A stretch of DNA of 40,906 nucleotides from a virus. The stretch lies in the IMG/VR virus record IMGVR_UViG_3300005529_000065, positions 1 to 40,906 of that record. One strand, written 5' to 3'. Below the pieces are notes generated by a model. That model saw only the letters and a list, made by a program, of their open reading frames with translations, made no database searches and was not told where the DNA came from. Shown in pieces: positions 12,086-39,642 of this stretch. Position 1 is the stretch's first letter. Each line of letters begins with the position of its first letter. The translations under genes were made by a program, and so were the position numbers.

Positions 12086-12328
12086 CTAGCGCTTCCGGGG
12101 TTTCTTGTCCGGGATCTTGATGGGTGTGGCGTGGATGCCGACCGGACCCCGCCGGGCGGGGGTGCCGTGCTTCACGAGGTGGTGCAGGTCGATGGCGTGG
12201 CGGTTGCAGACGACGACGTAGGTTTTGATGCCGTCGGGGTTGATGAGTTCCCAGCGTTCGCCTTCGTCCCCGCAGAGGTTGCATTCTCCCTGCCACAGGC
12301 CGGTGAGTTGGTCTCTTGGGTCAGCCAC
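12086..12328 (-). CDS. small Cys/His protein downstream of integrase
   Basis: 80 residues; GTG start overlaps the integrase stop by 8 bases, so it is co-translated with integrase. ECNLCGDEG then VVVCNRHAIDLHHL gives a Cys-x2-Cys...Cys-x2-His pattern, consistent with a small zinc-binding domain; the C-terminus is basic (PDKKPRKR). It could be a recombination directionality factor or other DNA-binding partner of integrase, but no excisionase signature is seen. Confidence 0.65.
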   Translation of the reverse strand: MADPRDQLTGLWQGECNLCGDEGERWELINPDGIKTYVVVCNRHAIDLHHLVKHGTPARRGPVGIHATPIKIPDKKPRKR

Positions 12329-13361
12329 TGCGTCTCCTAGTGAAGTCGACGGTGATGATGTTGGAGTCTTCCACGGCCGGGGCCTCCATGAACGACTTGC
12401 CCTTCAGGTACTCGTCCAGCTTCTGCCGCTCATGGTTGGTGCCGATGTAGTGCTGGGTCATCGACGCGTCGGAGTGGTCGAGGAACGCCTGGGTGATGTG
12501 GATGGCCCGCGCCTCCCCCGAGTCCGCGAGCGCGTCGAACAAGGCCCGCGCGGAGGACCGCCGGAACGTGTGGAAGCCCTCGTACCGTCCGTCCATGTCC
12601 ACCGCGGCGAGAGCCTTGTGGGCGATGTCGCGGGGAGTGAACGGCAGTGACGGGATGTAGCTGCGCTGGCCGGCCCTGCCGCCACGGTGACGCCGAGGCA
12701 CGAGGAACCAGGACTTCTGCGGCGTGCCGCACTGCTCGGTGTACACCGTCAGCCAGGAGCGCAGTTCCCGGTCCAACTCGGCGGTGATCGGGAGGGTCCG
12801 CTCCCGTTGAAGCTTGACATTCACATAGCGGATGGAACCCGCTTCGAGGTTCACGTCACCGACCCGCAGTTCGGCGACACTTGACACTCTCACGCCCGTG
12901 TGGATCGCAATGGCCAACGCTATCCGGTCCCTCGGGTTGTCGGCACTCTCGATCGCTGCGGTCATCTGCGCGGGGGTGAGGCGCTGCCGCTCCCGCTTGT
13001 AGACCTTGCGGCAGGTCACCCGCCGCATCGGGTCCTCGTTGAGCATCCCTTCGTCGCGGGCCCACTTGCAGAACGCCCGCAGGTTCGCGACGGAGTTGTT
13101 GAACGCACCGGCCTCTACCTGGGTGTTCCGGCCCCTGGGGCCGTAGAACCAGCGCTCCATGTGGTCCACGGTCAGGTCACGCACGGGGATGTTCCCGATG
13201 TCGTTGAGGAACCGGCGCATCTCCCCCTCGATGCAGCGCATGGTGTGGGGCCGCGCTCCACGGGTCCGCCGGTGGCGGAGGTACTCCTCGATCGCCTTGC
13301 TCAGGTACATGGCGCTGTCTACTTCCGTTGAGTGGAGCGTGGACTGAGTTGAGTGTGCCAC
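12321..13361 (-). CDS. int: tyrosine integrase
   Basis: 346 residues. N-terminal SAM-like core-binding domain (residues about 15-115), then the catalytic domain with Arg158 (HTGVRVSS), a probable Lys183, His264-x2-Arg267 (HTFRR), His296 (LDHSD) and nucleophile Tyr305 (QHYIG): the full tyrosine recombinase set. It would integrate the phage into the host chromosome. The GTG at 13361 lies 9 bases from a leftward copy of the dispersed TTGACAG element; an internal ATG at codon 18 is an alternative start. No att core is recognisable nearby. Confidence 0.93.
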   Translation of the reverse strand: MAHSTQSTLHSTEVDSAMYLSKAIEEYLRHRRTRGARPHTMRCIEGEMRRFLNDIGNIPVRDLTVDHMERWFYGPRGRNTQVEAGAFNNSVANLRAFCKWARDEGMLNEDPMRRVTCRKVYKRERQRLTPAQMTAAIESADNPRDRIALAIAIHTGVRVSSVAELRVGDVNLEAGSIRYVNVKLQRERTLPITAELDRELRSWLTVYTEQCGTPQKSWFLVPRRHRGGRAGQRSYIPSLPFTPRDIAHKALAAVDMDGRYEGFHTFRRSSARALFDALADSGEARAIHITQAFLDHSDASMTQHYIGTNHERQKLDEYLKGKSFMEAPAVEDSNIITVDFTRRRSG

Positions 13362-13370
13362 TGACCTGCG

Positions 13371-13384
13371 GAACTGTCAACTAA
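13371..13384 (-). promoter_or_regulatory. dispersed element, copy 2 (TTAGTTGACAGTTC)
   Basis: Leftward copy 9 bases before the integrase start codon. Confidence 0.6.
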
Positions 13385-13563: not shown

Positions 13564-13577
13564 TTACTTGACAGTGC
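13564..13577 (+). promoter_or_regulatory. dispersed element, copy 3 (TTACTTGACAGTGC)
   Basis: Rightward copy 74 bases before the HTH-protein start. Confidence 0.6.
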
Positions 13578-13651
13578 CGGCCCTTGTGGCGCAAGATCAC
13601 TCACGTAAGTTACTCGTAGTACCAACTCAGCCGAACACTTAGGACTCTGCC

Positions 13652-14086
13652 ATGGGCGCACCCTTCATCCTCCCCGAGGACGACAACGAGCTGGAGAAGC
13701 TCATCCTCGAACACGGTCAGGCGGAGGTAGCACGCATGTACGGCGTCACCCGCGGGGCAGTCGCCGCACGCGTCGCCAGGGCCCACGAGCGTGGGCAGAT
13801 GCGGAGAATCCAGCCCCGTCGGGACTACAGCAAGTACATCCCGTGGACCCTCGACGCCAAGCACAAGAACCACGACACGGCGAAGAAGCTCCGCATCTAC
13901 GGGGCCCTCCAGGAGGGCTGGCCCGTCACCGCCGACGAGGAACGACGCCTCCGGACGTGGATGGGCCTGCTCGACTCCGACGGCCTGGTGTTCGCCTACG
14001 ACCGGTCGGAGGGGTTCTACCGCGTCCCCCGGCAACCCGAGGACGTGGGGTACATCCGCCAACCGGAACCATCCTCCGGAAAGTGA
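13652..14086 (+). CDS. HTH DNA-binding protein, candidate immunity repressor
   Basis: 144 residues from ATG 13652. Residues about 20-45 form a helix-turn-helix (HGQAEVARMYGVTRGAVAAR), followed by a basic segment (RRIQPRRDYSK) and a mixed C-terminal domain. It is transcribed divergently from integrase and is closed by its own terminators (14132-14185), the usual setting of a phage repressor. If the dispersed TTGACAG elements are operators, this is the leading candidate for the protein that binds them. Function inferred from context and the HTH. Confidence 0.65.
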   Translation: MGAPFILPEDDNELEKLILEHGQAEVARMYGVTRGAVAARVARAHERGQMRRIQPRRDYSKYIPWTLDAKHKNHDTAKKLRIYGALQEGWPVTADEERRLRTWMGLLDSDGLVFAYDRSEGFYRVPRQPEDVGYIRQPEPSSGK

Positions 14087-14131: not shown

Positions 14132-14185
14132 GGCGGCTCCGCCGCCTTCCTCTCATCATCTTCGTGGGGGCCCTCCGGGGCCCCC
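14132..14185 (+). terminator. tandem hairpins after HTH gene
   Basis: GGCGGC/GCCGCC (14132-14146, 3-nt loop) is followed by GGGGGCCC/GGGCCCCC (14166-14185, 4-nt loop) and then TTCGTTTTG, a rho-independent type terminator. Confidence 0.75.
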
Positions 14186-14278
14186 TTCGTTTTGTTCATC
14201 ATCCTTGTGGCCGCTGCGCGGCCCATCACTTGTCTGTGCTATCTTGCGTGGAACTGTTCATCAATCGTGGGAGTGAGC

Positions 14279-14464: not shown

Positions 14465-14478
14465 ATAGTTGACAGTTC
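14465..14478 (+). promoter_or_regulatory. dispersed element, copy 4 (ATAGTTGACAGTTC)
   Basis: Lies 56 bases before the membrane-protein start at 14534 and is followed by a short GTGCC/GGCAC hairpin. Confidence 0.6.
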
Positions 14479-14533
14479 CACGTGCCGGAGGCACAGTCTT
14501 CCCAACGGAGTCAACCGGTGGGAGGCAAAGGGA

Positions 14534-14686
14534 ATGAAGATCTGGTGGGCGTGGGCCGGGCTGATCCCGGCCATCAACCTCGGGGTGGTGCCCGGGAACG
14601 CGGCAACCTCCCAGTCGTGGGCCCTCGGCTGCGTCTCGGCGGCGCTGCTGTGGACGGGCACGATCCTCTGCGCACGGAAGGTCTGA
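14534..14686 (+). CDS. small membrane protein
   Basis: 50 residues from ATG 14534, with GGAGG upstream. Two hydrophobic stretches, WWAWAGLIPAINLGVV (residues 4-19) and WALGCVSAALLWTGTIL (29-45), predict two membrane passes. It precedes the SsgA-like gene by 3 bases. Function unknown. Confidence 0.6.
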   Translation: MKIWWAWAGLIPAINLGVVPGNAATSQSWALGCVSAALLWTGTILCARKV

Positions 14687-14689
14687 CCG

Positions 14690-15100
14690 ATGCGAGTGCT
14701 CCAGACCACCAAGTTCACCCACGTTGCTACCGGTTCCCGCGGGGACGTGGTCATGTCGTTCGACCCCGAGTCGCCGCTGGTGGTCAACTTCGACTTCGAC
14801 GTCGAGGGCGTGGCCGCCAAGTGGATGTTCTCGCGGGACCTCGTCGCCGAGGGCTGCTACTCCCCCAACGGCGTGGGAGACGGTGACTGCCGGTTCTGGG
14901 CGGACAACGACGGCACCACCGACATGCTCACGGTCCTGATCTCCTCCCCGGAGGGCGAGGCGGTCCTGGACGTGCCCCGCCAGTCGGTCCTGTTCTTCCT
15001 GGAGACCTGTGACGCGCAGGTGCGCCGCGGGTCGAAGGCGGAGGACATGGCGCTGGCGGAGCAGGTTGAGCTGCTGCTGGGTGCCCTGTTCTGCGGGTAG
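14690..15100 (+). CDS. SsgA-like sporulation/cell-division regulator
   Basis: 136 residues from ATG 14690. The order and content match SsgA-like proteins (SALPs): FDPESPLVVNFDF, then KWMFSRDLVAEG, then GDGDCRFW, then LTVLISSPEGEAVLDVPR and a C-terminal FLETCD segment. SALPs occur in morphologically complex actinomycetes, where they steer septation, spore maturation and cell-wall remodelling. A phage copy could alter host division or development during infection or lysogeny. Identification rests on family pattern; function in the phage is inference. It is followed by a copy of the dispersed element. Confidence 0.82.
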   Translation: MRVLQTTKFTHVATGSRGDVVMSFDPESPLVVNFDFDVEGVAAKWMFSRDLVAEGCYSPNGVGDGDCRFWADNDGTTDMLTVLISSPEGEAVLDVPRQSVLFFLETCDAQVRRGSKAEDMALAEQVELLLGALFCG

Positions 15101-15116
15101 TTAGTTGACAGTGCTA
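15101..15116 (+). promoter_or_regulatory. dispersed element, copy 5 (TTAGTTGACAGTGCTA)
   Basis: Full consensus copy directly after the SsgA-like gene, before a 330-base region without genes. Confidence 0.65.
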
Positions 15117-15224
15117 CGATGATCTGGCACCACTGAGAGTCCCACAACATGGCCTAGGGCGCGGGCGCAAATCCGGCCGACAACGGAAGGCCGGGACCGG
15201 TGCACGAGTAGGGCCCCACTTGAT

Positions 15225-15423
15225 GGGGACGACGGCATGTCGCACCACCCGAGATAAGCCCTAGCTGGACCCGCCAGACGCACTGGGGGCTAGGCGCTCA
15301 CCAAGCCGGCAGCGACCGGGACTGGCTAACTCAATCCTCAAGGGCGCGCTAGGTGCCCCGCAGACCGTCCCCCACCCCCTCGGGCCAGGTCGCGGTGCGC
15401 GAGTTCGATTCTCGCGGCGTCCA
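15225..15423 (+). ncRNA. tRNA-like / tmRNA-like structured RNA candidate
   Basis: The 15101-15447 interval holds no supported gene. Its 3' end has a clear tRNA T arm: GCGAG-TTCGATT-CTCGC (15399-15415) followed by acceptor-like GGCGTCC and A (15416-15423). GGACGAC (15227-15233) pairs with that acceptor strand at 6 of 7 positions. GCACC (15242-15246) pairs with GGTGC (15394-15398) directly next to the T stem, as helix P2 does in tmRNA. Inner helices include GCGAC/GTCGC, CTGGC/GCCAG and CCTAGC/GCTAGG. No convincing tag peptide is seen and it is shorter than usual tmRNA, so identity is open. Confidence 0.45.
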
Positions 15424-15447
15424 CTCCCAAGCACAAGGAGAACGGTC

Positions 15448-15801
15448 ATGCTCACGGTCGACCAGCTCGATCAAATCAAATGCTCCGGCAAGACGGCCCT
15501 GTACGACAAGGCCGCGGACGGCGACAGCGAGGCTGCCGTGTACGCCAAAGCCATCTGCCGGCTCTGCCCCGTACGGGAAGCCTGCCTGGACGAACACTTC
15601 CTCGACCGGGACGTCGTCGTCGGTGGCACGACGTGGGCTGAGCGGCGGAAGATGCTGGAGGCCGGGGACTATTCCGAGCACGTCCAGCGGCGCCTGGAGG
15701 CCTGCCTGCACGGTGTACAGGGCACGATCGCGGCGTCCAGCATCGGCCTGCAGAACGATTTGCTGCAGATGCTCCGGGCACGGCACGACATCGCCGCCTG
15801 A
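15448..15801 (+). CDS. WhiB-like Fe-S transcription factor
   Basis: 117 residues from ATG 15448, with AAGGAG 9 bases upstream. The four cluster ligands are in the family order: Cys12, Cys37, Cys40 (CRLC) and Cys46, followed by the turn motif VVGGTTWAERRK (residues 57-68) in place of GVWGG. Wbl proteins bind a [4Fe-4S] cluster and usually the primary sigma factor; phage copies can interfere with host WhiB-controlled septation and superinfection. The C-terminal extension of about 50 residues is longer than in many Wbl proteins. Hairpins follow the gene. Confidence 0.88.
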   Translation: MLTVDQLDQIKCSGKTALYDKAADGDSEAAVYAKAICRLCPVREACLDEHFLDRDVVVGGTTWAERRKMLEAGDYSEHVQRRLEACLHGVQGTIAASSIGLQNDLLQMLRARHDIAA

Positions 15802-16245: not shown

Positions 16246-16482
16246 ATGCCCAGTTACGGACGGGGCGCGTACCGCCAAGCCAAGGCCAACGAGCGGGTTG
16301 CCAGGGATGTTGCATCAGACCTGGACCAAATGCGCCGGGAAATGGAACGCATCATCGCTGAGCGGGATGCCGCCGTGGCTCGCCTTGCCGCCATCCGCGC
16401 CGAGATTGAAATCGGGCCCACGCACCACCTCATCGGGGTTACCTATGCCCGCTTGGAACAGTTGCTGGACGGAGACACGTGA
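16246..16482 (+). CDS. small coiled-coil protein
   Basis: 78 residues from ATG 16246. Residues about 12-52 are a long charged helix (DLDQMRREMERIIAERDAAV) with heptad spacing, then HHLIGVTYARLEQLLDG. Overlaps the nuclease start by 4 bases (GTGA), so the two are probably translated together. Function unknown. Confidence 0.6.
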   Translation: MPSYGRGAYRQAKANERVARDVASDLDQMRREMERIIAERDAAVARLAAIRAEIEIGPTHHLIGVTYARLEQLLDGDT

Positions 16483-17315
16483 CCGCACCCCCGCACCTTT
16501 CGCACTCGCAGATCGACACCGTCCTAAAATGCGGCGAGCAGTACCGGCTAGAGCGCATCTACAGAGCGCCCCGAACACCGGCCTGGTACTTCATTGGTGG
16601 CTCAGTCGTACACGTCGTCACTGAAATGATCGACGTCGGGTTTGATGACCTCAACGAGGTCACACCTGACTGGATCGAGAACGCTTGCGCTCGCCAGTTC
16701 GATGATCTCGTTGAAGACGAGTACTTCAAGTCGGGAATCGACCCCGTGGATTGGCGCGCGGGTGGCCGGGGCGGTTCCGAAGATGCGTCTTGGTGGCACG
16801 TTGAGGCCCCGAAGATGGTGCAACGGTGGGTTGACTTCCTCCGTGAGGGCAACTTGAAGGTTGCGAACATCGACAAGAAACGTGCCGTCGAACTGGAGTT
16901 CGTCTCCCACTACGGCGGCGTCCGGTTCAAGGGCGGTATCGACCGGGTCCTGCTCGGGCGGGACACCAACGAGCGTGTGATCGTGGACTTGAAGACGGGC
17001 CGCAGCGAACCCACGTCGCCGTTCCAGCTCGCGCACTACCGTGACGCACTCAGGGAGTGCCACGGGATCGATGTGCGCTGGGCGTACTACTGGATGGCCC
17101 GGACCGGGAAGCTGTCGAAGCCGTTCGACCTGGACCTGATCGACGACGAGACGATGACGCAGCGCGTCACTGTCGCCCACACCCTCATCTCGGAGGGCCT
17201 GTTCACCCCGAACCCCTCGCCCCTGTGCTCATCGTGCGGGGTCAAGCGCTGGTGCAGCGCATTTGGCGGGACCACCTTTGAGTTTGAGGAGTTAGTTGAC
17301 AGTGCTAACGACTGA
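16479..17315 (+). CDS. Cas4/RecB-like PD-(D/E)XK nuclease with Fe-S cluster ligands
   Basis: 278 residues from GTG 16479. The N-terminus LSHSQIDTVLKCGEQYRLE is typical of RecB/Cas4-type nucleases, with Cys18. Core motifs: GGIDRV (Asp155), IVDLKTG (Asp170, Lys172) and a conserved QLAHYRDAL helix. Cys250, Cys253 and Cys259 close the protein (PLCSSCGVKRWC); with Cys18 they make the four ligands of the Cas4/AddB-type Fe-S cluster. It would act as a 5' or end-processing exonuclease in phage recombination or replication. No CRISPR or recT-like partner is adjacent. Confidence 0.85.
   Translation: MTAPPHLSHSQIDTVLKCGEQYRLERIYRAPRTPAWYFIGGSVVHVVTEMIDVGFDDLNEVTPDWIENACARQFDDLVEDEYFKSGIDPVDWRAGGRGGSEDASWWHVEAPKMVQRWVDFLREGNLKVANIDKKRAVELEFVSHYGGVRFKGGIDRVLLGRDTNERVIVDLKTGRSEPTSPFQLAHYRDALRECHGIDVRWAYYWMARTGKLSKPFDLDLIDDETMTQRVTVAHTLISEGLFTPNPSPLCSSCGVKRWCSAFGGTTFEFEELVDSAND
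17292..17307 (+). promoter_or_regulatory. dispersed element, copy 7 (TTAGTTGACAGTGCTA)
   Basis: Full consensus copy inside the 3' end of the nuclease gene and overlapping the start codon of the next gene, which argues against a simple -35 role. Confidence 0.6.
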
Positions 17316-18034: not shown

Positions 18035-18237
18035 TGAGCCTGCGTGATTGTCACAACGAGAACGTCAAGGTGCTGGAGATCGTCTCCGCCGACCTTGAGG
18101 GCGCGGCCGACTGCTGGACCGAGCTGGCCGCGTGGACTTCAGAGAACCATGGTGTGTACAACGTCTCCAGTGCGCATGTCGCGTTCGACGGCGAATCGGG
18201 GAAGTGGTACCTGACCGCGTTCGCGTGCGAACTCTAG
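18034..18237 (+). CDS. hypothetical early protein
   Basis: 67 residues; ATG 18034 overlaps the previous TAA (TAATG). Two hydrophobic strands near the C-terminus (HVAFDGESGKWYLTAFACEL). Overlaps the next gene by 13 bases. Unrecognised. Confidence 0.6.
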   Translation: MSLRDCHNENVKVLEIVSADLEGAADCWTELAAWTSENHGVYNVSSAHVAFDGESGKWYLTAFACEL

Positions 18238-19034
18238 CCCGCGCTTTCCGTAATACCCCGGACGCGGGCGGCGTCATTCCTTGCCCGCTCCGGTGCGTAC
18301 AAGACCTCGGACTGAAAATGCTCCGAGGCCAACTGTCCCTGTGGGTCGCGGCACCGGGCGGCGGGAAGACACTCCTGGCCCTGCAGATAGCCCTCCAGGC
18401 CGGTGTACCGACCCTGTACGTGTCCGCGGACACCGACCGCACGGACCAGTCCGTTCGTGCGGCTTTGGCCCTCGGATGGGACGGAATGGACCCCCACGGG
18501 CAGGAAACCGCACTTTCGTGCATCCCGTTGAACGTCCAGTTCTCCTTCGAGTCGTCCCCCACGGCACACGACATCGCGCAGGAATGCGAGGCGTACGCGT
18601 TGGTGTGGGGCCAGTACCCGGAGCTGATCGTCATCGACACCCTGGCGAAGGTGTGGTCGGAGGGCGATGAGACGGCCCGGAACAAGGACGGGGTGGACAA
18701 GTGCCAGGAGATTGCACGGGAGACCGGTGCGCACGTGATGCTCCTGCATCATGCCCAAAAAGCCTTCGATTCTGGAGACAAACCCATCCCACTGGATGGA
18801 TTGATGTCGGGGGTTTCCAAGACTCCGGAGCAGGTCGTTTCTATGTGGAGAGACGACGAGGACCGGTTGACCCTGGCGGTGATCAAGAACCGATCCGGCA
18901 GGGCTGACCCGACGGCGCAGCGCGTGCGGTCTCATGCGGTGCTGAATTTCGAGCAGATGCGTGTGGAAGAGATACAGGTTCAGACCTTCGATTGGGCTGA
19001 CGACGAGTACCTCAAGGGCGGTGTTTATGAGTAA
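18225..19034 (+). CDS. RepA/RecA-fold ATPase (replicative helicase-like)
   Basis: 269 residues from GTG 18225. Walker A APGGGKT (residues 43-49) is followed by the strand VPTLYVSADT; Walker B is LIVIDTLAKVW (near 130-140) with a downstream HVMLLHH motif. The spacing fits the RecA-fold hexameric ATPase group of plasmid RepA and phage DnaB-like helicases (AAA_25 type). Placed before resolvase-like and primase genes, it is the probable replication motor. The usual DnaB N-terminal domain is missing. Confidence 0.8.
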   Translation: MRTLARAFRNTPDAGGVIPCPLRCVQDLGLKMLRGQLSLWVAAPGGGKTLLALQIALQAGVPTLYVSADTDRTDQSVRAALALGWDGMDPHGQETALSCIPLNVQFSFESSPTAHDIAQECEAYALVWGQYPELIVIDTLAKVWSEGDETARNKDGVDKCQEIARETGAHVMLLHHAQKAFDSGDKPIPLDGLMSGVSKTPEQVVSMWRDDEDRLTLAVIKNRSGRADPTAQRVRSHAVLNFEQMRVEEIQVQTFDWADDEYLKGGVYE

Positions 19035-23836: not shown

Positions 23837-24262
23837 ATGCCTAAGCGCACCCGCACCCCAGAAGAGCGTTACTGGGAGAAAGTGGGCATGGGGCCGAATG
23901 GCTGCCACGTCTGGTTGGCTTTCAAAAACAAGCTGGGCTACGGATGGTTCTGGGCGAATGGCCGCCACTGGGCGGCGCATCGATACGCCCTAAAACTGGC
24001 TGGCCGCGAGGTCCCGGACCACTTGGTGGTTGACCACCTCTGTCGCAACCCGAGTTGCGTGCGCCCGGACCACCTTGAGGCCGTCACGGACAAGGTCAAT
24101 ATCCAGCGCGGCCTGGTCCCCAAGACTCACTGCAAGTCCGGAAAGCACGTGCTGGACGTAGACGGCAGAGACCCTTACAACGGCTCTTGCCTTCCCTGTC
24201 GAAAGGAATACAAGATTGAGTGGCAGCGCGCGAATCGGGCGGCGCGACGTGCCGCTCTCTAG
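23837..24262 (+). CDS. HNH homing endonuclease 2
   Basis: 141 residues from ATG 23837. GCHVWLAF...GYGWFW...RYALKLAG is followed by VVDHLCRNPSCVRPDHLEAVT, the HNH core, and C-terminal Cys pairs (HCKSGKH; CLPCRKEYK). The core is nearly the same as in the proteins at 19027 and 30952. It overlaps the metallophosphoesterase gene by 47 bases. Its own copy of the dispersed element may control it separately. Confidence 0.88.
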   Translation: MPKRTRTPEERYWEKVGMGPNGCHVWLAFKNKLGYGWFWANGRHWAAHRYALKLAGREVPDHLVVDHLCRNPSCVRPDHLEAVTDKVNIQRGLVPKTHCKSGKHVLDVDGRDPYNGSCLPCRKEYKIEWQRANRAARRAAL

Positions 24263-25007
24263 GATCTTGGTGCTTCCCGACTCCCAGTTTGGGAGCGAGG
24301 ATCGACGCCTCCACCGCCAATTCATCGCCTTCATATCGACCTACCAACCAGACCGCATTGTCCATGTCGGCGATTTTCTCGACTGCAAAGCGCCCGCGCG
24401 CTGGTCGCGTGACACCGCCGAAGAGTTCGCCCACACCTTGCAGGAGGAGATTGACCGTGGACGTGCGTTTCTGCATGGTGTGCGACAAGTGTTCAGCGGT
24501 CCAGTCGATATCAAGTCAGGCAACCACGACGAGCGGATCGAGGTTTATCTGCGAACCAAAGCGCCAGCACTGCAATCGTTGCGGAGCCTCCGAATTGAGG
24601 CTCTTCTCGGCCTTGATCAATACAATGTCGGATGGCACCGGCAACCCTTCGACGTCGCACCCGGATGGCTCATCTGCCACGGGCACGAAGGGAGTCTCAG
24701 CCGCTACGCGGGTGGAACAGCTATTGGCCTTGCACGAAAGCTGGGAAAATCCGTCGTAACGGGGCACACCCACAGGGCCGGCATCATCTCCGAGTCCTAC
24801 GGGCTCCCCGGAAACATGAAGACCATCACCGGGATGGAGGTCGGCCACGCGATGGACATGAAAAAAGCGGCCTACCTGAACGCCGGAGCGAACTGGCAGA
24901 CCGCTTTCGGGTTGCTGTACGTGGATGGTCACCGGGTCACCCCGACGTTGGTGCCGGTGCACAAGGACGGCTCGTTCACCGTCGAGGGCGAGGTGTTCGG
25001 TGGGTGA
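24216..25007 (+). CDS. calcineurin-like metallophosphoesterase
   Basis: 263 residues from TTG 24216, preceded by AAAGGAA; GTG 24249 is an alternative. All metal-ligand motifs are present: LPDSQFG (Asp22), HVGDFLD (Asp53), SGNHDE (Asn103, His104), CHGHEG and TGHTHR. The family hydrolyses phosphodiesters or phosphomonoesters; phage copies may act on DNA ends or nucleotides. Located near the end of the early operon. Confidence 0.85.
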   Translation: MSGSARIGRRDVPLSRILVLPDSQFGSEDRRLHRQFIAFISTYQPDRIVHVGDFLDCKAPARWSRDTAEEFAHTLQEEIDRGRAFLHGVRQVFSGPVDIKSGNHDERIEVYLRTKAPALQSLRSLRIEALLGLDQYNVGWHRQPFDVAPGWLICHGHEGSLSRYAGGTAIGLARKLGKSVVTGHTHRAGIISESYGLPGNMKTITGMEVGHAMDMKKAAYLNAGANWQTAFGLLYVDGHRVTPTLVPVHKDGSFTVEGEVFGG

Positions 25008-25431
25008 GCCCTTGGACGTCGAAAGCGACGCGATCATCCCCTATCCCTTACTCGAAGACCACGACGCATACCGGACATTCTGCCTCAAACGAGCAGCAGC
25101 CCGGAAAGGATACGACGTGACCGACCTAGCCTGGTATTCCACCGAAACGCTCGCTGAGCTGGTGGAGGCCGTCCTGGGCGCGTTCACCCCCACACCACAG
25201 GGTGACGGGCGGGGCAACAATGATCCCGCTGAGGGGTGGAACGTTCAGGCTGCGCTGGCTGACGTTCAGCGGGCCCTGTACAAGCTGATGAGCCCCGAGC
25301 ACCGGGCCGTGCTCATGCTCCACCACAGTGGCTATCTGGAGGCCTCAGACGAGTCCCTGCAGGCCGCCTACACGGACCTGCAGGGGTGCCTGGGTGGTAG
25401 GCGCCCCAAAGGGCTTCTCGACCGTTCGTAG
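25000..25431 (+). CDS. hypothetical early protein, weakly sigma-region-4-like
   Basis: 143 residues from GTG 25000, overlapping the preceding gene by 8 bases. A central helical stretch (DVQRALYKLMSPEHRAVLML) resembles the first helices of sigma region 4, but the following segment (SDESLQAAYTDLQGCLGGRRP) lacks a clear recognition helix. Last gene of the rightward early operon, followed by a terminator. Regulatory role is a guess. Confidence 0.55.
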   Translation: MGEPLDVESDAIIPYPLLEDHDAYRTFCLKRAAARKGYDVTDLAWYSTETLAELVEAVLGAFTPTPQGDGRGNNDPAEGWNVQAALADVQRALYKLMSPEHRAVLMLHHSGYLEASDESLQAAYTDLQGCLGGRRPKGLLDRS

Positions 25432-26640: not shown

Positions 26641-26805
26641 AACCTCGGGCCAACACATCGCGTCAGGGGAACCCGGTCTCATCGCGCGCACGCGCCCGGT
26701 GCCTGCACGCGAGAAGCCCTCGCGGCATTAGAGTGGCCAAGCCACCCGTGACGCCTCCCGGCGATGAACCAACAGTGCCACCACCAGCGAGCACTGTCAA
26801 CCAAC
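26589..26805 (-). other. leader of the leftward cluster, no further gene supported
   Basis: Beyond HHR-3 this 217-bp stretch holds a leftward TTGACAG element (26791-26804) and GC-rich short hairpins (GCGAG/CTCGC and GTGGC/GCCAC on the leftward strand). A leftward GGGAGGCGTCACG near 26755 resembles the ribosome-binding site and start of the 50-aa gene but with ACG instead of ATG, perhaps a decayed gene. Confidence 0.4.
26791..26804 (-). promoter_or_regulatory. dispersed element, copy 12 (TTGGTTGACAGTGC)
   Basis: Leftward copy at the head of the leftward cluster, probably near its promoter. Confidence 0.6.
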
Positions 26806-33433: not shown

Positions 33434-33849
33434 TGGCATCTGGGGGCTACCATCCGCCGGCTTCTCCCGCTCCGGTTAGCGGGCCCGGCGCCTTGTCGCA
33501 GCGGACGGACGCTCCGCCGCTTGCTGTGTCCGGCCTTGCGTACGGCTCGAATGGGCCGTTGAACCAGCAGATGTCTGGGTTGCCGAATGGGCAGGCACCG
33601 AATGTTCCGCCGATGAACCCGCCGGGTGGGCCGCAGTCCCCCAGTGGGGCGCAGATCCTGCCGCCGTCGGCGCCTACGACTCTGCCGAACCAGCCGATCT
33701 CGCATGGGGCACCGTTCGGCCCTGGGCCGAATTCTGTGCCGGGCCAGCAGCCGTACACGCTGACAGACATTCTCGGGCGCATGCTCGGGAACGATATCGC
33801 CGGCCGGCTCGAAGACGTCTACCTGAACGCCGAGAAGAACGGCCTATAA
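33433..33849 (+). CDS. Pro/Gly-rich structural protein
   Basis: 138 residues from ATG 33433, overlapping the previous gene by 1 base. Residues 1-105 are disordered and Pro/Gly/Ser-rich (HPPASPAPVSGPG; PPMNPPGGPQ). The C-terminal 33 residues are ordered (TLTDILGRMLGNDIAGRLED). Probably a linker or internal virion protein. Confidence 0.6.
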   Translation: MASGGYHPPASPAPVSGPGALSQRTDAPPLAVSGLAYGSNGPLNQQMSGLPNGQAPNVPPMNPPGGPQSPSGAQILPPSAPTTLPNQPISHGAPFGPGPNSVPGQQPYTLTDILGRMLGNDIAGRLEDVYLNAEKNGL

Positions 33850-33861
33850 CCTGGAGGACCC

Positions 33862-36800
33862 GTGACGTACCCCGGCACCCCTAACCCTGCTGCGGTTACG
33901 TTCGGCGACACCCTGTCCGGGAATCCCCAGCTCGTGAACGACCCGTCTCTGGCGTACCCGACTGCGATGGCTGGTCTGTCGGCTGACCAGCAGGTTCAGG
34001 TGACGAACGCTGGTGCGGGCAACTCCATCAAGGACTACCTGACTGCCCTGCCGGCCGCGGAGCAGCCGAAGGCGTGGGCCGCCCTGAACGGGCAGCAGCA
34101 GCAGTTGGCGTTGGCTTCCGGGTACCAGACCGGTTTGGCGCAGGCGCAACAGTCGCGGGTGACGGCCCCGGAGAACCAGGGCGGCAAGTCTTGGCTGTCC
34201 CGCATCGGCGGGGACGTTCTGGGCGCGGTGAAGACGGGCGTCACGGACACCGTGGACAGCGTGTGGAATGCCGGGGCCAAGGTCCTGTCCATGGCCGGTA
34301 TCCCGTTGAAGTACGTGCAGCGGGCCGCCAACACGGGAATCCTGGACATTACGGACCTGGCCGAGGGTAACCCGATTTCGATCGGGCGGGCCTGGGCTCA
34401 GGCCGGTTCGGCGCCGATGACGCAGGACTCGTACAACGACCTGGTGAAGCAGTTCGGCCAGCCGATGATGGACTTGGTGAGGTCTGCCCAGAAGGGCGAC
34501 GATCCGGAGGCGCTGGCGGGGCAACTGCTGGCGAAGGCCAAGGCTGACCCGGCGAATGCCGCGATGTACAACCAGCAGATTGCGGCGATCCAGAATGCGC
34601 AGAACTCCCCGGAGTTCAAGCAGGCCTTGATTGCGGCGAACAACCACCTGATCTCCCCTGGGCGCATTGTCACCTCCTGGGCCGCTAACGCCCTGTCGAC
34701 GGTGACCGGCGGGAACGTGGACCTGTACCAGCACAAGGTGCTGTACGGGCTGCTGTCCGGGCCCGTGGACGCGATGTTCGACTTCCAGGCCGACCCGTTG
34801 ATGCTCGCGGGGAAGCTGCACGAGGAGGCCGCAGTCATGCGGCGCGGCATCCAGATCGCCGAGAACTACGCAGGCGAAGACTTGGCCAAGGTCGGCGGGG
34901 CTCTCGCCGAGGGCGCCGGGGAGGCCGCCGCTGGGGCCGAGGCGGGCGCTGAAGCTGGCGGTGTTGGCGGTTCCCTGGCGGGCCCGGAGGGTACCGCTGT
35001 CGGTGGCCTCGTGGGTGGTGTTGCTGGTGCCGCGGGCGGGATTCTGTCGACGATTCTGCAGTGGGCCAACAAGGGCGGCTCGCAGCGCCTCGCGCACGTG
35101 ATCGCTCAGCACGCCGCTGGCGGGGACGGTTTCCAGCCGATCGCCGACGCTGCCGCGTTCCAGAACCGGCTGCGCCAGGTGTTTTCCGTTCCGTCCGTGC
35201 AGCGGTACTTCGACGGCATGGGCGCGCGGGTTCAGACGGTCATGTCCGGCACGGCGGAGGGCGCTACCGAGGCTGACCGGGACGCGGCTGCTGCGGCGAT
35301 GAAGTCGATGCGCCGTGACTACCCGCGCTTCGCCCCGGTGCTGGACTCCCTCGTGGAGGCCGGTGTCACCGACGCCCACAAGGCGGAGAACTTCTTCAAC
35401 AACTACAAGGGCTTCCAGCTTTTGACGCAGGGCGTGCCCGCGTCGCGGGTGCCGTTGATGGCTGCCCGCACCCAGTTGGGCGAGAACATCAAGAAGTTCA
35501 TCAGCCCTGGTGCGGTGTTCGACTTCCTGGAGAACGGCCACAAGCTGACCCAGGACGACATGAACGACATCAAGACGCACATCGCTGGGCTGACTCAGGA
35601 GGTTTCTCCGGAGTCGCGCGCTGCGGCGCTGGGCGGCCAGAACCTGGCTGAGGGTACGACTGCGGCGCAGGCGAACCTGCATGTGGCGAACCTGTTGTCG
35701 CAGGCCCAGTTCGACACGTGGCGTGGCAAGACGGCCACGATCATGCGCCGTATCGGGTCGAAGATCCCCACCTTCGGTGAGGGCAACGTCCTGTACCACG
35801 ACGGCCTGGACGCCGAGGGCAAGCCGGTGTCGGAGCCGACGCAGGAGTTCACCCGGTTCGTGAAGATGTTCGCGCCGTCGTTCTACGCGGACCAGGTCGG
35901 GCAGGCGTACGCGGCTGCGGACTTGGCGGGGCGGAAGAACATTGCGGCGTCGATGCTGCACATGATGGGCGACTCTGCGGGTATCACGAAGACTGCGGCT
36001 GGCCGCGACTCGTGGGCCCGCGTGATCGGTGCCCTGAATGAGGATGGCCAGGCGAAGTACACGCTGACGGACCTGGGGCAGATGCCTGATGGCCGGAACG
36101 TGGTGGCGGACCCGGGCAAGGCCCGGCCGTACACGGTGATGCCCAGCATCAAGGAGTTCTACGCCCAGTCGGCTAAGCATGGTGTGCTGGCGCACACGGT
36201 GGGTTGGACGAACAAGGATGTTGTTGACAGTCTTGTTGACAAGATCTGGCGTCCGTTCGTTCTGATCCGCCCGGCATTCATCATCCGGTCGAACATCGAA
36301 GAGGCGCTGAACCACATTCTGCGCAACGGTCCGGGTGACAAGTTCATGTCTATGATCCGCCGGTCGGCGGGTAACGAGCTTGCCCGGCAGCAGAAGGAGA
36401 AGCTGGGGATCGACGCGGCGAAGGCAAACCAGGCTTTGTCGGAGCACATTGCCGCGGTGAAGTCCGTGTACGGCGACGACGCGACGGTTGAGAAGCTGCG
36501 CGCCGCGACCACGGGCGACACGCAGGACATGCGTACGGTGGCGGACAAGTGGGCCAGCCTGAAGGCGAATGCCCAGGAGGCGACGAACGCGTTCGAGCAG
36601 CACCCCGGCGTGTTGGACCCGGACCACTCCAGGTTCACGAAGCTTGCGCTGATGCCGATCACGCAGTCGTCGCGGGCGTTCACTGCCGCGCTGCGGAAGG
36701 TGCCGGTCGACGCGCAGTTCTTCGGCCGGGGCTTCAAGTCTTCTGGGGCTGAGATCCGTGACGCCATTGAGGCGCACGGCACCCAGATGCAGCAGTTGCA

Positions 36801-39642
36801 GGCGAACCTTGAGGACGCCCGGACGAACCTGTCGCGGGCTACTGCCGCGTTCGAGCAGAAGTACGGGAAGCCCCTGGCTGAGGTTCAGGCCCGCGCGGCC
36901 GACCAGTCCCTGACCCCGGCGGATCGTCGGGTGGCTGAACGGCAACTGAAGGCGCACAACGACAACGTGTCGAAGTTGCGTGACGGTGTCACTCAGGCGC
37001 AGATGGCGTTGGACGCGCACGGGGATCTGCCGGCGGTTGCGCGGTCTGCCCGGGACAACATGGTCGCGGGGTGGGTGGATCGCCGTGAGGCGGCGTTCTT
37101 CCACTTCATGGGCCGCATGTCTTTGAAGGTTATTCAGGACATGAACCCGAAGGACGTTGAGCGTCTGTGGGAGTGGGCTCAGCACCCTGAGGGCCAACGC
37201 ATCATGGGCCACGCCTTGAATGAGGCGGCGGACCGGTCTATGCGGAACGCGACTCCGGACATTCAGCCGGGGAAGCGGGCGCAGAAGGTCCGGGTGAAAC
37301 TGGACACGTTCGGCACGAAGTCGGCCGCTGGCGATGAGGGCGCGAAGGCTTGGTCCTGGGCGCTTGAGGACCAGTCCAGCAACCCGTTGCTGCAACCGGC
37401 GATGCTGCACGCGGATGACACGCAGGCCGCGGAGAAGGCTGTCCTGGCTGCGATCAAGGCGCATCCGGAGTGGAAGAAGACGATGACCCTGTTCGCGGGG
37501 AAGTCGGATGAGACTGTGGCGCAGCAGGCCGTGAAGGAAGTTCAGGCTCACCTGTCGTTCGGGAACACGGCGGAGGGTCCGGGCCAGTTGAACCGGGACC
37601 TGTTCGCCCGGATGATCAAGGAGGACCCGGAGACGGGTATCCGCACCCTGAACCCCGAGGCGTGGACCCCGGAGCGTTTGCAGGAGATCCCCGGGAAGTT
37701 CCGGCCGGAGCAGGTGTTCGCACCGGATTCGCATCTGGTGGAGGACAACTCGAAGGACGGCTTCTACACGCGGCTGGTGCAGGACGGCTTCTCCCGGATG
37801 GGGAAGTGGATCTCATTCCTGGGCCGCAGCGACCAGGCCGTGTCGGAGTACCTGAACGCCCGCAAGGTGCTGCAGCCGTGGGAGGAGATGTACGCCAACC
37901 ACCTGGCCCACGTCGGGCTGGAGGAAGGCGTCGAGCCGACCGCCGAGGAGATGGCGAAGGCCCAGGCGATTGCCAAGGACCAGGCCATCAAGAACGCGTC
38001 CAGCCAAGCGCTGGCCCGCACTCTGCGGTTCGTCGACCACCCCGGTGTGCGTTCCCAGGCCGCTGTCCTGATGCGGAACATGGCGCCGTTCTGGCGCGCC
38101 GAGCAGGGTTTCCTTGAGCGGTGGGGGCAGACGTTCCGGTACGCCCCGTCCGCGTTGGGAAAGCTTGAGGAGACTGCGCATTTCCTGCAGACGACTCCGT
38201 ACCTGCACAAGGACGCCAACGGGAACACGTACATGTCGTTGCCGTTCACGCGGCAGATGACCAGGTTCGTGGACGACATCGGCCACGCGACCGGGCTGCC
38301 GCTTCAGTATCTGCCGATCCCGAACACGATCAGCGGGAACATCCTGCGGTCATCGCCCGGGTTCAACGTGGACTTCCTGAAGCACCCGATCAACGGCCCG
38401 ATCGTGACGCTGCCGCTGCAGACGTGGCAGATGTTCACGCACGGTTCGACCCCGGATCTTCTGTTGAAGACCCTGGGTGGGGATCAGGCGACGACGCAGG
38501 CCGGCCAGGGTTTCGAGGGTGCGTTCTTGAACTCGCTGCCGTCGGCTATCCGGCCGCTGATGCAGTTGGCGTTCAACCAGGATCAGTACCGTGAGACTGC
38601 GACGATGCAGGCCATCGCGACGATCCAGAGCAACCCGGAGCTGGCGTTGCCGACGGATGCCACGTCGGCGCAGAAGCAGGCGTGGCTGAACCGGGTCAAC
38701 GCTGCTGCGCTCGGGATGGCGTTGACTGAGGCGTTGTTCCGTCCGTTCGACCCGATGCCCATCACCAATGAGGCTCCTATTCCGGCGGCGGACCCGGCTG
38801 CTCAGGCGGCTGGCCTGTTGAACGTGAAGCAGGAGTTCAACCAGATGGTGAAGGACTCCGGTGGGGATTACATCCAGGCGTACAACTACTGGGTGGCTGC
38901 CCACCCGGATGAGATCCCGTTCTTGACGGGACAGTCGGAGTCGTCTGGTGGGCCTTCGATTCCGGACACACAGCAGGCGTTCGACTGGATGCAGAACAAC
39001 CAGCAGTTGATCAAGGATTACCCGCTGGCTGCCACCTACCTGATTCCGCAGCCGGGATCTAGCGGTGACACGTTCTCGTTCGCGCCGTTCCAGATGGCCC
39101 AGCAGTTGGGTCTGGTGAAGAACCTGTCGGCGCGGGACTACCTGTCGAAGGTTCAGGAGAAGTCGAACATCAACACGTACTACCAGATGAAGGATCAGGA
39201 GGCCCAGGAGATCGGGGACCTGTCCCCGTATTCGGCGGCTGCCGCGCAGATCCGGGCCAAGTGGAACGCGAAGATCCAGCCCTGGTTGGCCCTGAACCCG
39301 GATGTGGCTACGTACGTGAACGACTCCAGCAACCGTGCCGACACCCGGAACCAGACGGTGGTTCAGATGGTGCAGATGTTGGACGCGCATCCGGAGCTGT
39401 TGAACACGCAGGCCGGGAAGGTCATGAACGGTTTCGTTGGTTTGTTTGTGCAGTACCAGTCGAACATGGCGGGGATCATGGCCCACGGGATGGCGAAGAC
39501 CACCCAGCAGAAGGCTCTGACGAACCAGTTCGACCAGGAGGCGCAGCAGATTGCGAACGGTTCGCCGACTGGGCAAATGCTTTACAACTCGCTGTTCCGT
39601 GACATGGAGCAGACCGACATCGCGGCGGTTGGGGGTATCTGA
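33862..39642 (+). CDS. giant structural protein, probable internal/ejection protein
   Basis: 1926 residues from GTG 33862, with GGAGGACC upstream. Mostly alpha-helical and Ala/Gln-rich. Features: a glycine-zipper segment near residues 350-395 (AGGVGGSLAGPEG; GGLVGGVAGAAGGIL); a RPAFIIRSNIEEALN block near 810; coiled coil near 975-1065 (MQQLQANLEDARTNLSRATA). No lysozyme motif is clear. It lies between portal and scaffold, not after tail genes, so tape measure is unlikely; transport into the cell with the DNA, as for large podovirus internal proteins, is the best guess. Its TGA overlaps the next ATG. Confidence 0.75.
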   Translation: MTYPGTPNPAAVTFGDTLSGNPQLVNDPSLAYPTAMAGLSADQQVQVTNAGAGNSIKDYLTALPAAEQPKAWAALNGQQQQLALASGYQTGLAQAQQSRVTAPENQGGKSWLSRIGGDVLGAVKTGVTDTVDSVWNAGAKVLSMAGIPLKYVQRAANTGILDITDLAEGNPISIGRAWAQAGSAPMTQDSYNDLVKQFGQPMMDLVRSAQKGDDPEALAGQLLAKAKADPANAAMYNQQIAAIQNAQNSPEFKQALIAANNHLISPGRIVTSWAANALSTVTGGNVDLYQHKVLYGLLSGPVDAMFDFQADPLMLAGKLHEEAAVMRRGIQIAENYAGEDLAKVGGALAEGAGEAAAGAEAGAEAGGVGGSLAGPEGTAVGGLVGGVAGAAGGILSTILQWANKGGSQRLAHVIAQHAAGGDGFQPIADAAAFQNRLRQVFSVPSVQRYFDGMGARVQTVMSGTAEGATEADRDAAAAAMKSMRRDYPRFAPVLDSLVEAGVTDAHKAENFFNNYKGFQLLTQGVPASRVPLMAARTQLGENIKKFISPGAVFDFLENGHKLTQDDMNDIKTHIAGLTQEVSPESRAAALGGQNLAEGTTAAQANLHVANLLSQAQFDTWRGKTATIMRRIGSKIPTFGEGNVLYHDGLDAEGKPVSEPTQEFTRFVKMFAPSFYADQVGQAYAAADLAGRKNIAASMLHMMGDSAGITKTAAGRDSWARVIGALNEDGQAKYTLTDLGQMPDGRNVVADPGKARPYTVMPSIKEFYAQSAKHGVLAHTVGWTNKDVVDSLVDKIWRPFVLIRPAFIIRSNIEEALNHILRNGPGDKFMSMIRRSAGNELARQQKEKLGIDAAKANQALSEHIAAVKSVYGDDATVEKLRAATTGDTQDMRTVADKWASLKANAQEATNAFEQHPGVLDPDHSRFTKLALMPITQSSRAFTAALRKVPVDAQFFGRGFKSSGAEIRDAIEAHGTQMQQLQANLEDARTNLSRATAAFEQKYGKPLAEVQARAADQSLTPADRRVAERQLKAHNDNVSKLRDGVTQAQMALDAHGDLPAVARSARDNMVAGWVDRREAAFFHFMGRMSLKVIQDMNPKDVERLWEWAQHPEGQRIMGHALNEAADRSMRNATPDIQPGKRAQKVRVKLDTFGTKSAAGDEGAKAWSWALEDQSSNPLLQPAMLHADDTQAAEKAVLAAIKAHPEWKKTMTLFAGKSDETVAQQAVKEVQAHLSFGNTAEGPGQLNRDLFARMIKEDPETGIRTLNPEAWTPERLQEIPGKFRPEQVFAPDSHLVEDNSKDGFYTRLVQDGFSRMGKWISFLGRSDQAVSEYLNARKVLQPWEEMYANHLAHVGLEEGVEPTAEEMAKAQAIAKDQAIKNASSQALARTLRFVDHPGVRSQAAVLMRNMAPFWRAEQGFLERWGQTFRYAPSALGKLEETAHFLQTTPYLHKDANGNTYMSLPFTRQMTRFVDDIGHATGLPLQYLPIPNTISGNILRSSPGFNVDFLKHPINGPIVTLPLQTWQMFTHGSTPDLLLKTLGGDQATTQAGQGFEGAFLNSLPSAIRPLMQLAFNQDQYRETATMQAIATIQSNPELALPTDATSAQKQAWLNRVNAAALGMALTEALFRPFDPMPITNEAPIPAADPAAQAAGLLNVKQEFNQMVKDSGGDYIQAYNYWVAAHPDEIPFLTGQSESSGGPSIPDTQQAFDWMQNNQQLIKDYPLAATYLIPQPGSSGDTFSFAPFQMAQQLGLVKNLSARDYLSKVQEKSNINTYYQMKDQEAQEIGDLSPYSAAAAQIRAKWNAKIQPWLALNPDVATYVNDSSNRADTRNQTVVQMVQMLDAHPELLNTQAGKVMNGFVGLFVQYQSNMAGIMAHGMAKTTQQKALTNQFDQEAQQIANGSPTGQMLYNSLFRDMEQTDIAAVGGI

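Follow-up and report, generated by a model that had tools for sequence, protein, structure and literature searches.

Does a phage that carries an SsgA-like (SALP) gene beside a WhiB-like gene use the pair against its host, and would it do so as a dormant prophage or during infection? The question is raised by the IMG/VR virus record IMGVR_UViG_3300005529_000065, which stands alone, has no host attached and was analysed over its full length of 40,906 bases (the window). The SALP and WhiB-like genes adjoin each other, between an immunity repressor and the replication genes. A first reading of the letters alone (the sequence-only reading) had assigned the two genes to families that control septation and sporulation, had placed a tRNA-like RNA between them and copies of a dispersed element in front of them, and had suggested that the pair ensures prophage entry into spores or blocks septation. 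The pair is most naturally read as acting on host division or development, a function that we infer from sequence, and both genes look like tools for host takeover during infection more than aids to a dormant prophage.

Results

By blastn, no close relatives of the phage were found, and an IMG/VR search with the SALP, the WhiB-like protein and the exonuclease yielded no close relatives for any of the three. The terminase, capsid and portal are 42%, 48% and 41% identical, respectively, to their counterparts in FlowerPower and WRightOn, podoviruses of the Beephvirinae. The gene order of the phage is a permuted version of theirs, including a tRNA before the capsid module and the order WhiB, exonuclease, DnaB, in which two small ORFs intervene here. 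A tyrosine integrase is encoded at 12321-13361 on the minus strand (PF00589, 3.1e-18; phrog_1, 7.7e-36), its true start probably lying further downstream in frame, and an immunity-repressor homologue of the L5/R4 family is encoded at 13652-14086 on the plus strand (phrog_3929, 4e-14); the proteins that it matches by tblastn in Streptomyces and Mycobacterium phages are annotated as immunity repressors. Because these two genes are present, the phage is probably temperate. Relatives of the integrase at 1e-20 were not found in 61 genomes of the family. Judged by its genes, this uncultivated phage is a probably temperate relative of the Beephvirinae, which are virulent, lytic Streptomyces phages, and Streptomyces is its putative host.

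Elsewhere in the window, a single tRNA-Gln (CTG) at 599-673 lies just before the capsid module, at the exact site of the 21-tRNA cluster of FlowerPower. A 1926-aa ORF at 33862-39642, 3' of the portal gene, occupies the position of the large hypothetical gp9 of FlowerPower, and its first 1000 residues have only a weak PHROG match (phrog_11489, 1.5e-4). At 24216-25431, a metallophosphoesterase is followed by an ORF weakly like a FlowerPower protein annotated as sigma-K factor (26%, 1.5e-4), which is a possible partner of the WhiB-like protein.

Between the repressor gene and the SALP operon lies a terminator-like hairpin (14166-14195; eight pairs, all G-C, then TTCGTTTTGT). The probable first gene of the operon, read from the sequence, is a small ORF of 50 aa at 14534-14686, which has two hydrophobic stretches and no family match and ends 3 nt before the SALP start. 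The SALP gene (14690-15100; 136 aa) is followed by a non-coding whiB leader of 330 bases (15118-15447), in which no gene was called, and then by a divergent WhiB-like gene (15448-15801; 117 aa) with AAGGAG upstream. Downstream are a PD-(D/E)XK exonuclease (16479-17315; PF12705, 4.1e-23) and a DnaB-like helicase (18132-19034; phrog_243, 1.1e-47), all of these features being on the plus strand. Codon-position GC, that is, the third-position GC of true genes, supports both the SALP and the WhiB-like frames.

The SALP matches the Pfam profile PF04686 with 65.1 bits (5.6e-18; cut-off 25). The sequence-only reading had named a lack of such HMM support as one of the things that would refute it, and the SsgA-like assignment is borne out both by this score and by the fold. 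An AlphaFold model made from nine sequences (pLDDT 90) contains seven strands and three helices and superposes on 6slc with TM 0.80/0.85 and rmsd 1.8. By sequence, the best solved relatives are S. coelicolor SsgB (PDB 6slc, 1.3e-14) and then T. fusca SsgB (3cm1, 7e-7). One Streptomyces genome encodes seven SALPs; against its SsgB orthologue the phage protein reaches 65.9 bits, and against its likely SsgA orthologue 28.5 bits, and another SALP, of a second genome, scores 67.8 bits. The 6slc molecule is named SsgA in the PDB, and the paper reporting it describes S. coelicolor SsgB (PMC8061694). Going by these comparisons, the phage SALP is not SsgA proper and is nearer to SsgB-type proteins. It is 32% identical to SsgB, and in a tree its end branch is 2.07 changes per site long, with a placement that has no resolution. 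The highest identity to a host protein in these SALP comparisons was 37%, over a shorter stretch. In searches of 296 Streptomyces genomes and of 246 from the actinobacterial class, no best match exceeded 36% identity; therefore, the SALP was not recently captured from any genome searched, and a recent capture from a host was rejected.

The SsgB residues with known mutants were mapped onto the phage SALP by alignment. The core residues W51, R55, L57, G67, G69, S89-S90-P91-E92 (SSPE), V115 and G118 are all kept, Y35 is replaced by Leu, and E120 is replaced by Lys (Lys116), an assignment that depends on the alignment of a variable loop. Glu is found at this position in 13 of the 13 host SALPs in which it could be aligned (five genomes). 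Most SALPs of BE-type phages have no clean G-x-E motif, and the SALP of phage Dagobah retains it. In SsgB, E120 orients septa, interacts with R55 and Y35 and keeps the last helix in place; FtsZ binding is retained by E120 variants, which misplace septa, and E120G weakens the contact with SsgA (PMC8061694). The Lys at this position is the best clue that the SALP may be no plain copy of SsgB function.

The assignment of the second gene is likewise upheld. Its product matches PF02467 with 30.8 bits (4.3e-7; cut-off 23.6), phrog_472 ('WhiB transcriptional factor') at 5e-10 and phrog_1333 at 1.9e-6, and it keeps the four Fe-S-type cysteines (Cys12, Cys37, Cys40 and Cys46), with a CxxC in the middle. 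The G[VI]WGG turn of the family is not kept, the sequence being VVVGG and then TTWAERR, and because this turn is absent, sigma binding by the protein is uncertain. No basic cluster was found after residue 68, where a basic C-terminal tail was looked for; such a DNA-contacting tail is found in many, not all, PF02467 members. A structure model made without an alignment was unusable (pLDDT 50).

That the E120 hinge and the WhiB turn are lost and that the SALP branch is long would also suit passenger genes that were acquired by chance, are decaying and have no present function. However, both frames are intact with strong codon-position GC, the fold core is kept in the confident SALP model, all four WhiB cysteines are retained, and both families have been kept in other phage lineages, so that we hold this explanation to be distinctly improbable.

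The combination of the two families in one phage is not new, as BE-type Streptomyces phages precede it. Both were found in six of the six BE-type records searched (MT114162, PP171440, PP171438, MK620896, PP537961 and NC_048728), at a SALP-WhiB distance of 11-29 kb; the SsgA-like genes of these phages are mostly annotated as hypothetical. SsgA-like proteins in phages, with a likely role in manipulating development, have already been noted for Dagobah (PMC7650747). WhiB-type genes are the commonest transcription regulators in actinophages (PMC8612146), and are cited as being present in 24% of actinophage genomes (as given in PMC10117723).

In the Beephvirinae, WhiB was found in seven of seven records, just before the exonuclease and the DnaB helicase, and a profile search for SALP gave none in the seven, the same profile finding SALPs in other phages. 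Since these relatives carry WhiB in this position and no SALP was found in them, the WhiB slot looks ancestral, and the SALP, like the integrase and the repressor, looks like an addition. The SALP-WhiB neighbourhood may therefore be a mosaic assembly more than a designed pair. It is possible, although on balance we doubt it, that the WhiB-like protein is a regulator of phage genes, for example in an early-to-middle switch, which came from a Beephvirinae-like ancestor and is unrelated to host development, and that only the SALP is directed at the host, whose division it would inhibit, the two genes having become neighbours by mosaic assembly. The place of WhiB beside the exonuclease and helicase in these virulent phages speaks for this, as does the sigma-like gene of Beephvirinae genomes with its weak counterpart in the window. 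On the other hand, the tested phage example, TM4 WhiB, acts on the host, where it is cited as inhibiting whiB2 transcription and hindering septation (as cited in PMC7650747), and the BE phages also combine SALP and WhiB.

When would the two genes be expressed? The window contains a dispersed 15-bp asymmetric element with the consensus AGTTGACAGTgCYAC, whose copies are mostly intergenic. At two or fewer mismatches, AGTTGACAGTNCYRC occurs 13 times in the window, where 0.73 copies would be expected, and a count of 13 was not reached in any of 100 shuffles, so that the copies seen by the sequence-only reading are real. They lie at the integrase start (a head-to-head pair at 13347-13382, both arms 13/15 to the consensus), before the repressor gene (13566-13580, plus strand), before the SALP operon (14467-14502, plus strand, a 15-mer with no mismatches and a partial inverted second arm of 10/15), downstream of the SALP gene and ahead of the whiB leader (15103-15117, plus strand, no mismatches to the pattern), at the end of the exonuclease gene (17294-17308, plus strand) and elsewhere; the copies at 14467 and 15103 precede the SALP and whiB units. 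Head-to-head pairs with a 6-bp spacer occur at 13347-13382, 14467-14502 and 26767-26802 (second arm 10-13 of 15), and the other copies are single. A wholly palindromic operator was rejected, a convincing second arm being found only at the 13380, 26800 and 14469 sites. No good -10 box was found beside the elements. R4-like phages possess a repressor-stoperator system (PMC10276819). Because the 13 copies include those at the integrase, at the repressor, before the SALP operon and before the whiB leader, and a repressor homologue of the L5/R4 family is encoded nearby, the elements are probably operators or stoperators of the phage's own immunity repressor. As such, they would predict that both genes are off in the lysogen and on early in infection.

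This prediction bears on the idea that the two are lysogeny genes, which the prophage would express so as to be carried into spores or to adjust how the lysogen develops. That the phage is probably temperate, having an integrase and a repressor homologue, and that whiB is enriched in temperate actinophages (PMC8612146) would agree with such a role. But both units lie after repressor-type elements, and the families are also known from phages that lack lysogeny genes: WhiB, for example, is present in Abafar, a member of the Beephvirinae reported as virulent and as having no such genes (PMC11536984). We regard expression in aid of the prophage as unlikely.

The tRNA-like RNA that had been placed between the two genes is weakly supported. 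In the leader (15118-15447), ARAGORN called no tRNA or tmRNA at its default threshold, Rfam gave no match, and the folding energy is no better than that of shuffles (z about +0.4 to +0.5). The sole feature that stands out is a canonical T-arm-like hairpin, GCGAGTTCGATTCTCGC, at 15399-15415 (plus strand). A tmRNA or an intron-bearing tRNA was rejected, since ARAGORN with introns allowed found none and calls appeared only at a threshold of 50-60%, where many are false. An origin of the T-arm as attP, from a tRNA 3' end, was also rejected: GCGAGTTCGATTCTCGCGGCGTCCA had no match with up to three mismatches in three and then in 61 genomes of Streptomyces, the one bacterial genus covered, had no exact match in IMG/VR, and lies 2 kb from the integrase.

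In the Beephvirinae themselves, the space between whiB and the exonuclease holds a conserved RNA, roughly 235 nt long. A tRNA fold is embedded in it, and the nominal anticodon of this fold varies among the phages. The RNA lies at 33707-33942 (minus strand) in L158, 15852-16086 (minus strand) in L159, 2038-2271 in L160, 2017-2248 in L161, 2002-2236 in L162, 1939-2168 in L163 and 1978-2212 in L165. Of its 52 pairs, 33 are changed on both sides, with a covariation score of 0.639 against 0.08-0.09 for slid controls; the Rfam match is confined to the tRNA part, and the covariance model also detects the RNA in the held-out L164 and L166. Possibly, this is a structured phage RNA that has yet to be described. 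The leader of our phage was rejected as its homologue, the covariance model finding the T-arm only (7.9 bits).

Discussion

Taken as a whole, our model of host takeover is that the repressor, bound to the elements, would keep SALP and whiB silent in the lysogen, and that upon infection or induction the two proteins would be made early. Since the SsgB core is kept and the E120 hinge is not, the SALP would take its place in SsgB/SsgA/FtsZ complexes, and septa would be misplaced or blocked. The WhiB-like protein, since it keeps the Fe-S cysteines and has no basic tail, would bind to the main sigma factor and change transcription in the host or the phage, in the way that TM4 WhiB acts on whiB2. 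Jointly, the two would keep the mycelium undivided and infectable. Against this model stand the dependence of the hinge comparison on how a variable loop is aligned, the absence of the turn in the WhiB-like protein, the absence of a good -10 box and the chance that mosaic assembly alone made the two genes neighbours, and we consider it plausible at slightly short of even confidence. Its most specific form is more tentative, and we think it rather less probable than its opposite: that the SALP is a purpose-changed SsgB, retaining the core and the contact with FtsZ but with a different E120 hinge, which would enter host SsgB-FtsZ complexes early in infection, and that an L5-type repressor would switch it together with a sigma-directed WhiB, in a two-pronged attack on mycelial division.

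The sequence-only reading is partly supported: the two families stand, and the SALP turns out to be SsgB-type rather than SsgA and the pair to act probably in lytic growth. The predicted silence in the lysogen weakens the idea of prophage entry into spores, which is less likely than an action during lytic infection, and therefore favours a takeover of division. Independent support for such a takeover comes from the BE-type phages, which combine both families, and from the presence of WhiB in the Beephvirinae, including Abafar.

It has been reported that host differentiation contains phage infection, that Streptomyces escapes phages partly by differentiating, and that developmental genes are repressed at an early stage of infection with Alderaan (PMC10117723). 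Adjacent SALP and WhiB-like genes behind repressor-type sites would provide a compact system in which to test whether a phage holds the mycelium undivided. Furthermore, the natural change at SsgB position 120 would be a variant already at hand for work on the guidance of FtsZ by SsgB.

Comparison with known systems

Like R4-like Streptomyces phages and cluster A mycobacteriophages with their repressor-stoperator systems, the phage has a homologous repressor and many dispersed sites that contain TTGACA; unlike in those systems, some of its sites are head-to-head pairs, and the element was not found in the BD phage Itza. With SsgB (6SLC and 3CM1), the SALP shares the seven-strand, three-helix fold (TM 0.80 to 6SLC), whereas its identity is 28-37% and its gene sits under repressor-type sites. 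The four-cysteine core is shared with actinophage WhiB-like proteins (TM4 WhiB, phrog_472 and phrog_1333), although the WhiB-like protein here has the VVVGG turn and no basic tail, and its nearest phage matches cover it partly. The SALPs of BE-type phages and Dagobah belong to the same family at 27-37% identity; however, SALP and WhiB are unlinked in the BE-type phages and neighbours here, and Dagobah has a SALP and no WhiB match. Finally, in comparison with FlowerPower and WRightOn, the integrase, the repressor and the SALP are extra in this phage, FlowerPower has 21 tRNAs where this phage has one, and the conserved whiB-exonuclease RNA of the Beephvirinae is absent from it.
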